Origin: Rhizobium sp. BK399 | GTDB lineage: Bacteria; Pseudomonadota; Alphaproteobacteria; Rhizobiales; Rhizobiaceae | Length of the DNA stretch: 64,000 nucleotides | Reading direction: 5' to 3' | Assembly: GCF_014194695.1 (NCBI RefSeq) | Contig: NZ_JACIAH010000012.1 | Location: 62,001-126,000 of the forward strand | In this document: in pieces, positions 20,499-25,319 of the stretch | Position numbering within the stretch: the stretch's first letter is position 1 | Layout: every line of letters begins with the position of its first letter | Made by a program: the position numbers and the translations under genes | The notes under the pieces: generated by a model | What the model was told of the DNA's origin: nothing | The model's database searches: none | The model's input: the letters and a program-made list of their open reading frames with translations, nothing else

Positions 20499-21032
20499 AT
20501 GGCTGAGATCGCAAGCTCGCGCTCAAAAAGGCGGGTGCTTGTCGCATTGGCGCAAGTACCGTCGGCGGTTTCCAAGCTTGGTCGTATGAGTAAGCGCGAA
20601 CTCGACGATTTCGGTATGGCAGGCTCCGAGATCGCGAATATCGAGAGCCTCGCTGAGCAGCCAAACTCCGAGGTCATGAGTGAACTTCAAAAGGCCCGCG
20701 CTCAAGTCGCGGGCGTTTCATTGTTTTCTGGCGTGTATTTTCGGATATGCGCTGAGCGCATGTCTACGTTGCGAAGATTTGCGTACTATTTGTGCGATCG
20801 GGTTGGTATGATAATTTCAACGACGCACTACACCTCCTCCCGTAGCGCTGCGTTACGTGAAGGGCCAACCCTCCTCCCATGGCTCTTTGCAATGGACAGC
20901 AACAATCCTCCTCCCAGTTGCTGTTCTACTCTTTCAGAAGAGCCTGCCGCACCTCCTCCCGCGGCAGGCTTTTTTGCGGCATTATGGAACAATTGCCACA
21001 AGATTCCGATGAACGCTGATTCTATCTCCTGA
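20499..21032 (+). CDS. DUF1127-like frame running into the small RNA
   Basis: The first 60 codons resemble DUF1127/CcaF1-type small proteins: a basic N-terminus then VSKLGRMSKRELDDFGMAGSE matching the family pattern L-x2-L-x-R-M-S-x-R-E-L-x-D-x-G-x2-x-x-x-I. DUF1127 proteins normally end at 50-75 residues, but here no stop occurs in frame until 21032, so the frame crosses a hairpin (20694-20714) and the whole CCTCCTCCC RNA. The part after about codon 65 is surely not protein-like. A small frameshift near codon 60 is the simplest explanation. In Rhodobacter a DUF1127 gene is co-transcribed with the CcsR RNAs, which is the same order. Confidence 0.5.
   Translation: MAEIASSRSKRRVLVALAQVPSAVSKLGRMSKRELDDFGMAGSEIANIESLAEQPNSEVMSELQKARAQVAGVSLFSGVYFRICAERMSTLRRFAYYLCDRVGMIISTTHYTSSRSAALREGPTLLPWLFAMDSNNPPPSCCSTLSEEPAAPPPAAGFFAALWNNCHKIPMNADSIS
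20694..20725 (+). terminator. Hairpin between DUF1127-like region and small RNA
   Basis: GCCCGCG (20694-20700) and CGCGGGC (20708-20714) form a perfect seven-base-pair stem with a seven-base loop, followed by GTTTCATTGTTTT. It could terminate or process the DUF1127 message upstream of the RNA. Confidence 0.45.
20820..20976 (+). ncRNA. Cuckoo/CcsR-like small RNA with four CCTCCTCCC-loop hairpins
   Basis: CCTCCTCCC occurs four times, at 20833-20841, 20870-20878, 20907-20915 and 20952-20960, each time in the loop of its own stem: CTAC/GTAG extended by ACGCA/TGCGT; AGGGCCA/TGGCTCT; ACAGCAAC/GTTGCTGT; and GCCTGCCGC/GCGGCAGGC followed by six T, the terminator. The motif is an anti-Shine-Dalgarno sequence and is the hallmark of the cuckoo RNAs (CcsR1-4 of Rhodobacter, and rhizobial relatives). 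A TATGATAAT-like -10 element is at 20807-20815. The four different stems with identical loops look like tandem hairpin copies or one four-armed RNA. Confidence in an RNA is high; whether it is one transcript or several is open. Confidence 0.85.
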
Positions 21033-21538: not shown

Positions 21539-21640
21539 GAGCCATCATATGCAAAGGCCTGTCGCGTCGACAATGCCAGTCTCATTTCAACCTCGCTTTT
21601 TCACGTGCATGAAAAGAATGGCTCAACCGGAGGCAGACCA

Positions 21641-22051
21641 ATGCGTGAACGTCTAAAACTTATCTGCCTTTGTACCATGGCATCCCTTTGGTCCTCCTCC
21701 CTGGTCTCGGCTGAGGAGACAACCGATCAGATTGTGAACGGAAAGATATCCGATCCCCGAATCGCTGAGTGCGGTGTTCGTATCTCTTCCGGCCTGATCG
21801 TTCCATTTCTGGAGGCGAATGCCGATTTTGACGGGTCATACGAAATTGCGGTGTCCAAACACTCGTCCTCCGGTACGTCTCAGACCCGTCAAACCAATCA
21901 GATCAAAGGTGGGGCGATGGCAGTGGTGCAAATTGCCGTCGATGTGCCCGCTACCGCTGAATTGGACCTGCAGGTGAGCGACAAGGAGGGCCGTATGGTA
22001 TGCGTTTTACAGCAGACGGTTAATCTCGAAGCGGGGCCGCTCAGGATCTGA
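21641..22051 (+). CDS. CsgH-like curli/amyloid chaperone, exported
   Basis: A 136-residue protein with a signal peptide (LKLICLCTMASLWSSSLVSA) and a mature beta-sandwich-like domain containing ECGVRIS, GSYEIAVSKHSSSGTS, QTNQIKGG and a C-terminal VCVLQQTV. This resembles CsgH, the periplasmic inhibitor of curli subunit aggregation in alphaproteobacteria: paired Cys, the S/Y-x-x-x-V-S/K strand and the Ser/Gly-rich hairpin. ATG 21641 is preceded by GGAGG; an upstream in-frame start would spoil the signal peptide. No csgAB/EFG genes are next to it, so it is an orphan here. Confidence 0.55.
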   Translation: MRERLKLICLCTMASLWSSSLVSAEETTDQIVNGKISDPRIAECGVRISSGLIVPFLEANADFDGSYEIAVSKHSSSGTSQTRQTNQIKGGAMAVVQIAVDVPATAELDLQVSDKEGRMVCVLQQTVNLEAGPLRI

Positions 22052-22125: not shown

Positions 22126-22428
22126 TCAATGCCTCGTTGTGCACTTGCCTGCCGCGGCCGCCACAGCGGCGATCTCGGATTCGACCGCGTCCATCATAGT
22201 CAGTGCACGTTGCAACAATCCAGCACCATCGGGATCGGACAGAAAACTCGCGACGTGAAGGCCCTCACAAATCTTGTCGAGAAGTTCAACGATATCGTTT
22301 CTGCCAATGCTCCGCATGTTGCGTGACAGCTCCCGCATGCGATCACGGGCTTCGGCTACCACGACCTTCCGCTGTTCCAGCGAAAGGTCGTGAAACTCAC
22401 GTACACTCTGATGTTTTGGAGATTCCAC
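22126..22428 (-). CDS. Hypothetical helical protein (100 aa)
   Basis: A 100-residue, mostly alpha-helical soluble protein with a positively charged middle (EQRKVVVAEARDRMRELSRN) and an Ala-rich end. GGGAGG lies upstream of ATG 22428. No family recognised; the length and layout resemble another small gene at 27884. Likely real. Confidence 0.45.
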   Translation of the reverse strand: MESPKHQSVREFHDLSLEQRKVVVAEARDRMRELSRNMRSIGRNDIVELLDKICEGLHVASFLSDPDGAGLLQRALTMMDAVESEIAAVAAAAGKCTTRH

Positions 22429-23340: not shown

Positions 23341-23545
23341 AAAATTCCTCGCCGGTCACAAGCGTCAGGTGGGGCAGAGAACTTCGCGCCTTCTGCGGGG
23401 AATCTTTGCCGTTGCCCGAAAGAAAACATCGCGGCGAACACGCTGTAGGTTGCATCCACCGGAGAATTCATCTCAGCCCAGATCGCTCCGTGCAGAAGTT
23501 CCCCTAACTCTGTCTTCCTGCTATCCTGGAAACGAGGGACGGCTC

Positions 23546-25319
23546 ATGAGTGAGAACCGCAAGCTCGCCGCAATTCTGGCCGCGGACGTAGTCGGATACA
23601 GCCGGCTCGCCAGCGAGGACGAAGATCGCACCCTTGCAAGGTTGCGGGCACTGCGCAGCGACCTCATCGATCCAACCATCGCCGTGCACCACGGCCGTGT
23701 CATCAAGCGCACCGGAGACGGAGCGCTGGTTGAATTCCGCAGCGTTGTCGATGCCGTGCGCTGCGCCATCGAGGTGCAGCAACGGCATGGTCGAGCGCAA
23801 TGCCGGCGTTCAGCAGGATCGGCGCATAGAGTTCCGGATTGGCATCCATCTGGGAGATGTAGTGGAGGAAAGCGATGGCGACCTGATGGGCGACGGCGTC
23901 AACATTGCCTCGCGTCTCGAGAGTATCGCTGCCCCCGGAGCCGTTTGCCTGTCCGAAGACGCCTATCGCCAGGTCAGGGCGAGGCTCGATCTCTCCGTCA
24001 GCGATCTCGGCAACACGCATCTAAAGAACATAGCCGAGCCAATCCGGATCTATTCGCTCCAGATCGGCGCGGCCGCGGAGGCAAAGCCAGCAGTGACCGC
24101 CGGCGCTGTTGCTCGTGCGCCGGCCCCATTGCCACCCGAGCTCTCGATTGCCGTCCTGCCCTTCGTCAACATGAGCGGCGATGCCGAGCAGGAGTACTTC
24201 GCCGACGGCATCTGCGAAGATATCATCACCGCTTTGTCGAAGCTGTCGCAGTTGTTCGTCATCGCTCGCAACTCGTCGTTTACGTTCAAAGGCCGGAACG
24301 TGAACGTGCAGGAGGTGGGCCACAGCCTCAATGTGCGCTACGTGCTGGAAGGGAGCGTGCGCAAATCAGGCAATAAGGTGAGGATCACCGCGCAGCTCAT
24401 CAATGCGATCACTGGCGGCCACCAGTGGGCTGAGCGTTTCGACCGTGACCTCAGCGATATCTTCGCGGTGCAGGATGACGTCACCCAGCAGATCGTCGGT
24501 GCTCTGCAAGTCAAGCTCGCGGCCGGGGATCAGCAGCGGCTCGCAACCGAGCAGACCCAAAATCTGGAAGCTTATGACTTCTTCCTCCGGGGGCGTGAAC
24601 AGATGTGGCGACTGACGAGAGAGCAGAACATTCAGGGCCGCCAATTGTTGCAACGCGCCATTGATCTGGATCCAAAATTCGCCCCGGCCCACGCGTTCCT
24701 CGCCGTCGCGCACGCGCTCGCCTACGTCAACCAGTGGAGCGAATCGCCGTTGAGATCGCTGGAACAGGCGTCCGGATCTGCGACGCAGGCGGTGGCGATC
24801 GACGATCGATATCCGTACGCCCATTGGGCGATGGGCGTCGTCAATTTATACCTGCGACGGCTTGACGTGGCCATCCGGGAGGCTGAATGCGCGATCGCGC
24901 TTGCTCCCAACCTTGTCGAGGGTCACGAGAGCCTCGGGAACGCGCTTCACTATGCGGGCAGGCCCGACGAAGCCCTCGTTTGTTTCGAGCGGGCAATGGC
25001 CCTAAATCCATATTATCCGGACATCTTCCTGCACTTCCACGCACAGGCAATGTTCCAGCTGGGCAGGTACGAGGAGGCCGTTGCCATCCTGAAGCGACGG
25101 CTTGTCCGCAATCCATTCACCGACATCTCACGCGTGTTGCTGGCGGCGAGCTATGGTCACCTGGGCCGCTTCGCGGAAGCGCGCGGGGAGTGGGAGGAAG
25201 TGTTCCGGATCAATCCCGATTATTCCCTGGAGCACAGGCGAAAAGTGCTACCCTACAAAAACCCTGCCGATTTCGAGCGCATTGTCGACGGCTTGCGCAA
25301 GGCTGGCCTCACCGACTGA
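23546..25319 (+). pseudogene. Class III adenylate cyclase with TolB-like/TPR C-terminus, frameshifted
   Basis: Read across one shift, the product is about 590 residues: a cyclase homology domain (KLAAILAADVVGYSRLASED, metal Asp; RTGDGALVEF; then FRIGIHLGDVVEES and DGVNIASRLE in the next frame), a TolB-like segment (SIAVLPFVNMSGDAEQEYFA) and several TPR repeats. The frame breaks at about 23780, where CAGCAACGGC has one C more than the CAGAACGGC expected from the conserved EVQNGMVERNAG motif. Upstream and downstream reading frames are both clean for hundreds of codons, so the event is recent or a sequencing error. If real, cyclase activity is lost. The family makes cAMP and is abundant in rhizobia. 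Confidence 0.8.

Follow-up and report, generated by a model that had tools for sequence, protein, structure and literature searches.

A four-hairpin anti-Shine-Dalgarno RNA of the ar14/cuckoo family, with a predicted LsrB-type promoter, beside a DUF1127 gene remnant in Rhizobium

Does the row of hairpins beside a DUF1127-like gene in Rhizobium sp. BK399 encode an anti-Shine-Dalgarno (anti-SD) small RNA, and would such an RNA be carried on the DUF1127 transcript or made from a promoter of its own? A motif scan of the window, i.e., the whole 64-kb stretch of DNA analysed, placed CCTCCTCCC on the + strand at 20833, 20870, 20907, and 20952, with spacings of 37, 37, and 45. Over both strands of the window the motif occurs five times against 0.79 expected, a count that none of 100 shuffles reached. 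The minimum free energy structure of 20818-20976 (-64.8 kcal/mol, z -8.16; equalled by none of 200 shuffles) consists of four hairpins in which the motif is unpaired, the last being a terminator with a T run. All lie on the + strand: hairpin 1 (20819-20854, anti-SD loop 20833-20841), hairpin 2 (20857-20890, loop 20870-20878), hairpin 3 (20894-20926, loop 20907-20915), and hairpin 4, the intrinsic terminator (20935-20976, loop 20952-20960). Fold, covariation, and loop accessibility define all four, and an Rfam match additionally defines hairpins 2, 3, and 4. The loop motif CCUCCUCCC is exact in every hairpin of 20819-20976, with mean unpaired probabilities of 0.998-1.000 for the four loop motifs; the stem sequences are unlike one another, and the stem of hairpin 1 contains mismatches in the window copy. 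The motif positions, the fold z, and unpaired probabilities of at least 0.998 bear out the description in the earlier note of CCUCCUCCC exposed in four successive loops on differing stems, the last of them a terminator.

Several other features were recorded in the window. An open frame at 20499-21032 spans all four hairpins; as a real protein it was rejected, with no Pfam match and with the loop motifs falling in three different frames. The fifth CCTCCTCCC, at 21693, lies outside the array and inside another ORF (21605-22051), whose product is small, looks secreted, and weakly resembles CsgH (E 0.0071, short of the cut-off). On the - strand, a small ORF (22126-22428) weakly resembles the bacterial death-like domain bDLD3, at 20.3 bits against a cut-off of 27.1. 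The gene at 23369-25319 is seemingly split by a frameshift, such that its start shares the frame of ORF 23369-24376 and its remainder that of ORF 23634-25319; we take it to be class III cyclase-like, with a TPR-rich C-terminal part.

Comparison across relatives indicates that the stems are maintained as structure and the loops as sequence. From 110 rows with four exact motifs and the matching spacing, reduced to 35 loci at <90% identity, we derived a consensus of 35 base pairs. Thirty of these pairs are changed on both sides (15.2 in shuffles), with both-sided changes in 142 cells (32.9 in shuffles), and standard pairs occupy 92.1% of cells, compared with 82.0% after shuffling and 33.9-51.3% after sliding. 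None of 500 shuffles reached the observed number of paired cells, both-sided pairs, or both-sided cells. Hairpin 1 takes part fully, all 6 pairs of its two helices (helices 1 and 2) showing both-sided changes. Since the 35 rows had been picked by their exact motifs, we assessed how constant the loops are in 29 relatives retrieved purely by DNA similarity: loops 1-4 are exact in 27, 24, 29, and 28 of them, and mean majority identity is 0.98-1.00 in the loops, 0.85 in the stems, and 0.81 in the linkers. The stem covariation around constant loops that the earlier note had proposed looking for is present: both-sided changes affect 30 of the 35 pairs, and each loop is exact in 24-29 of 29 relatives. 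The opposite pattern, variable loops on conserved stems, which that note had named as refuting, is not seen.

These data bear directly on the idea that the region is simply a strong terminator or a chance repeat in which the loop motif is incidental. Hairpin 4 is indeed a terminator, and tandem repeats of the same pattern occur in unrelated bacteria (L139, L152, and L178). Nevertheless, this explanation is almost certainly wrong given stems that covary around constant loops in 35 divergent loci, a DNA match in each of 60 genus genomes (own included), and a published experimental function for the loops of the related RNA NfeR1, as reported in PMC10746234. Chance repetition in particular was excluded by the excess of motifs over shuffles, the fold z, and the stem covariation.

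We then asked to which family the array belongs. A 2015 paper on the cuckoo RNAs reportedly gives a range of two, three, or four hairpins. The covariance search suggested by the earlier note returned ar14 (RF02344) at 20851-20976 on the + strand with 94.8 bits, over a gathering cut-off of 58.8 and covering model positions 1-123 of 123; this is the sole Rfam match above cut-off in the window. The score supports the assignment to anti-SD RNAs of the ar14/cuckoo kind. Hairpins 2-4 fill the three-hairpin ar14 model, so that hairpin 1 lies almost wholly outside it, on its 5' side. The array also has the features that characterize the cuckoo family, namely exact unpaired CCUCCUCCC loops (here four), stems that vary yet stay paired while the loops are constant, and a hairpin number, four, within the range of two, three, or four given in PMC3927594. 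In that 2011 report, RNAs of three or four hairpins with CCUCCUCCC in their loops are described in several copies per genome and are proposed to block ribosome sites. Its four-hairpin cuckoo RNA, SmelA099 (RFMSmelA099), resembles the window RNA by its description: four consecutive hairpins, CCUCCUCCC loops, variable stems, several copies per genome, and relatives in both Rhizobium etli genomes. We accordingly reject the reading of the array as a new category of RNA, as four-hairpin forms have been in print since 2011 (PMC3927594), and the locus is a well-conserved but ordinary member of a described rhizobial small-RNA family. NfeR1 of Sinorhizobium meliloti is the best-characterized relative for comparison, with three hairpins, activation by LsrB, and anti-SD-dependent silencing as reported in PMC10746234; the window RNA shares the above-gathering match of hairpins 2-4, an LsrB-type box, and the anti-SD loops, and differs from NfeR1 by one more hairpin at the 5' end.

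The genome contains four ar14 loci, of which the window copy scores lowest. The other three are three-looped, and in two of these a single loop is a variant; hence only the window copy is four-looped, and a pattern scan of the genome likewise gave a single four-loop pattern. One of the three-loop copies (G000:C11:59997-61115, L002) has two DUF1127 genes downstream and none preceding on the same strand.

Four-loop arrays are widespread in Rhizobium. Nine loci from genomes of the genus have 100% identity, over 1.6-3.2 kb, with Rhizobium records that include R. cauense (L019), R. tubonense, R. phaseoli, R. bangladeshense, R. calliandrae, R. hidalgonense, and R. leguminosarum. A search with the stretch from the window gave a DNA match in 60 of 60 genus genomes (own included), and the first three motifs stand at the four-loop spacing in 114 of 148 Rhizobium genomes. 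At the family level, ar14 was found in 146 of 151 genomes at E 0.001 and over the cut-off in 137 of 151. Among the matches listed, named records with the pattern include Shinella, Agrobacterium, Ensifer, Brucella/Ochrobactrum, Mesorhizobium, Paracoccus, and others, from a scan that returned at least 119 stretches, some of them tandem repeats in unrelated bacteria. Within the collected loci, 220 arrays contain at least three exact motifs (136 with four, 75 with three, and nine with five to eleven), a count in which some places appear twice and a few are unrelated tandem repeats. The Mesorhizobium loci (L111-L113, L118, L121, L129, and others) mostly have three exact motifs at spacings of 35-37 and 37 and no exact fourth, and the named ones mostly lack DUF1127 within 700 nt; three motifs there and four loops in Rhizobium is a difference between the genera. 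Rhodobacterales arrays with 8-11 CCTCCTCCC motifs (L215:5589+, L120:5591+, L184:1604+, and L202:6996+) have the end of a DUF1127 domain 31-135 nt upstream. Pattern matches in Lachnospiraceae, Hungatella, Deltaproteobacteria, Clostridiales, Planctomycetota, and Stenomitos records (L139, L140, L152, L165, L178, and L192) are mostly evenly spaced (24-29 or 36) and are probably unrelated tandem repeats.

What, then, is the relationship of the array to the adjoining gene? A DUF1127-like gene is present upstream, as the earlier note had claimed, but as a remnant. At 20546-20657 (+ strand) the reading frame shifts inside the domain, with WRKYRRR in one frame and SKLGRMSKRELDDFGMAGSEI in another, as seen against the intact gene of a relative (L019). 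A custom profile of five DUF1127 proteins, four from this genome and one from a relative, recognized the remnant (E 8.9e-6), the DNA of which is 83% identical to an intact copy in G008 over query 67-141. In contrast, a Pfam search of the window open frame did not detect DUF1127, and a PF06568 search of the genome listed nothing on contig C12 up to E 1. L019, the closest DNA match, encodes an intact 48-aa DUF1127 protein (61.1 bits) followed by a terminator-like hairpin and then by four hairpins. DUF1127 as a frequent upstream neighbor is confirmed more widely: the gene is upstream on the same strand in 20 of the 35 non-redundant four-loop loci (window remnant included). Redundant counts give 35 of 52 four-loop arrays for L001-L106 and 51 of 75 for L107 onward. 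For the 37 three-loop arrays of L001-L106, DUF1127 is downstream in 20 and upstream in 7.

Such an arrangement recalls the CIN1 locus of Rhodobacter sphaeroides, in which CcsR1-4 and the DUF1127 gene ccaF1 are made as one RpoHI/RpoHII-driven transcript that is cut into four RNAs (PMC10253847). The likeness is that a DUF1127 gene precedes RNAs with anti-SD loops on one strand. If the window locus worked in the same way, the RNA would be the 3' part of the DUF1127 mRNA, released by RNase E with the help of the DUF1127 protein as for CcaF1-CcsR1-4. The frequent upstream DUF1127 gene in 20 of 35 loci and the published co-transcription of the CIN1 arrangement (PMC10253847) speak for this, as do loci in which loop 1 follows the end of DUF1127 by only 35-61 nt and which look like the Rhodobacter arrangement, namely those of Brucella (L126), Ochrobactrum (L170), Paracoccus (L145 and L203), and Jannaschia (L196). 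However, this gap is about 164-330 nt in Rhizobium and near relatives, and mostly 164-220 nt in Rhizobium. Moreover, a terminator-like hairpin (GCCCGCG-CTCAAGT-CGCGGGC plus a T-rich stretch; 20694-20728, + strand) separates the DUF1127 remnant in the window from the promoter region of the RNA. A strict finder placed a terminator between DUF1127 and the RNA in 32 of 71 loci of all kinds, compared with 1.6% of shuffles; the 39 of 71 without one fit the operon arrangement, and the finder overlooks imperfect stems such as that of L019. Whereas CIN1 has an intact upstream DUF1127 gene, the window has a frameshifted remnant and L019 an intact gene; and whereas CcsR comprises four processed RNAs, the window probably encodes a single RNA of four hairpins that has a separate promoter box and a terminator-like hairpin ahead of it. 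Because this hairpin and an LsrB/VtlR-type box intervene, co-transcription with DUF1127 as in Rhodobacter, which the earlier note had suggested, is unlikely, and we regard the operon arrangement as improbable for this RNA. A single RNA of ~157 nt is instead favored, because there is one promoter-like region, even spacing, and one terminator at the end; for the same reasons a cluster of processed copies, also raised in the earlier note, is less likely. Taken together, that note's interpretation stands as regards an anti-SD ar14/cuckoo RNA with four covarying hairpins and a frequent DUF1127 neighbor, whereas DUF1127 co-transcription is not supported and processed copies are less likely.

The promoter region supports a separate transcription unit. 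The LsrB/VtlR-type box spans 20748-20771 on the + strand and consists of TGCG-N6-GCAT (20748-20761) overlapping CGCATGTCTACGTTG (20757-20771). The latter agrees with the reverse complement of the VtlR motif published in PMC12595884 at 11 of 15 positions. The former, a predicted LsrB box, is one letter off the TGCA-N6-GCAT of the NfeR1 promoter, for which a -35 element CTTAGAC and an NtrC site at -101 to -116 are also reported (PMC10746234). Counting the window among the 35 non-redundant loci, 26 have a VtlR-type box of at least 11/15, which in 25 of them begins 74 to 78 nt before loop 1 (-74 to -78), against a background of 2.1% of shuffles and 2 of 35 loci in a distant control region; the remaining 9 of 35 loci have no box scoring at least 11. 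TGCR-N6-GCAT occurs in 14 of 35 loci, always at -84 to -86 and including the window (0.15% of shuffles), and in its strict form is missing from 21 of 35. Sequence and alignments further point to a -10-like TATGAT at 20807-20812 (+ strand), seven bases from a predicted transcription start at ~20820, which would lie 72 nt past the box T as in NfeR1. A good -35 was not seen upstream of TATGAT in the window copy, a difference from the CTTAGAC of NfeR1. Upstream of the DUF1127 genes of this genome, the best LsrB-type boxes score 9-11/15 and have no fixed position.

The genome probably encodes an LsrB ortholog. On contig C2, trxB is followed by a LysR gene and then by a pair of ar15 RNAs, a succession like that reported for the vtlR locus of Brucella (PMC12595884); the assignment is one of gene order only, and the LysR protein passed the cut-off of none of 25 listed NCBIfam models. 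The AbcR1/2 RNAs (Rfam ar15) and the VtlR/LsrB regulon share their type of promoter box with the window RNA (PMC12595884), and ar15 is a family distinct from ar14. In Brucella, VtlR is reported to control AbcR2 and three DUF1127 genes (PMC12595884), which may explain the DUF1127 company of these RNAs. In a non-exhaustive search of the literature, we did not find an own LsrB-type promoter described for four-loop loci downstream of DUF1127.

The window copy is itself diverged, with a mismatched hairpin 1 and 4 deviations in the 15 box positions, and these features raise the prospect of a decaying, untranscribed array left as a relic beside a dead DUF1127 gene. The DUF1127 frameshift, the degenerate second half of the box, the mismatches in hairpin 1, and the lowest ar14 score in the genome would fit such a relic. 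Against it stand four exact loops, a fold z of -8.2 for the four hairpins, an intact terminator, and a TGCG-N6-GCAT at its usual position; we consider decay unlikely. The copy may nonetheless be weakly expressed, because it is the lowest-scoring of the four. For comparison, only one of six NfeR1 copies of S. meliloti is reported as reliably detected by Northern blot (PMC7143759).

Candidate targets were sought among ribosome-binding sites of the matching type. GGGAGGA-N3-9-ATG occurs at 176 sites in the genome, compared with 24 for the reversed pattern. One candidate is ntrB, a proven NfeR1 target in S. meliloti that is silenced through the anti-SD loops (PMC10746234). The genome contains a dusB-ntrB-ntrC operon, in which ntrB was assigned by its kinase domains, its place, and a best NCBIfam match to NR(II) that is below the model's cut-off. 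Its start, at the dusB-ntrB junction, reads CCCGGGAGGCTGCATG, with GGGAGG four bases before the ATG. Each loop pairs six or seven bases with this site, and the duplex energies are -13.5 kcal/mol for loops 1 and 4 and -12.3 kcal/mol for loops 2 and 3; with the 5% level of shuffled sites at -13.5 kcal/mol, loops 1 and 4 are just at this level and loops 2 and 3 fall short of it. We also sampled 30 of the 176 GGGAGGA loci, 23 of which have an ORF of at least 70 aa. Three of these 23 genes are ABC-transporter binding protein-like (two Peripla_BP_4 and one SBP_bac_1), a plain count for which no enrichment is claimed; the two further NfeR1 targets that have been tested also belong to the transporter-type binding proteins.

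Taking the four hairpins, their covariation and fixed loops, the family membership, the positioned box, and the trxB-LysR-ar15-ar15 locus as observed, we favor, with a probability of roughly 0.8, a trans-acting, LsrB-activated RNA of ~157 nt that has its own promoter and hides the GGGAGG-type ribosome sites of selected mRNAs. The LysR-type regulator LsrB/VtlR would activate the RNA's own promoter, giving one transcript from about 20820 to 20976 that would end at hairpin 4. Its four redundant anti-SD loops would pair with GGGAGG-type ribosome-binding sites, the targets probably being ntrB and genes for ABC-transporter binding proteins, and this pairing would block initiation and promote mRNA decay. 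A more speculative, rather doubtful elaboration is that the four identical seeds form a multivalent scaffold that holds several mRNAs or damps all GGGAGG-type sites when LsrB is active; DUF1127 protein from intact copies elsewhere would then serve in trans, leaving the cis gene dispensable as in the window.

The preferred reading, of a separately promoted trans-acting RNA, gives the ar14/cuckoo family a further well-supported member with four loops, whose 5' hairpin is missing from the Rfam model. It makes a comparative case that the four-loop RNAs of Rhizobium have their own LsrB-type promoter and are not carried on the DUF1127 transcript. Moreover, with a broken DUF1127 gene beside it, this copy is a natural test case for a cis requirement of the protein.
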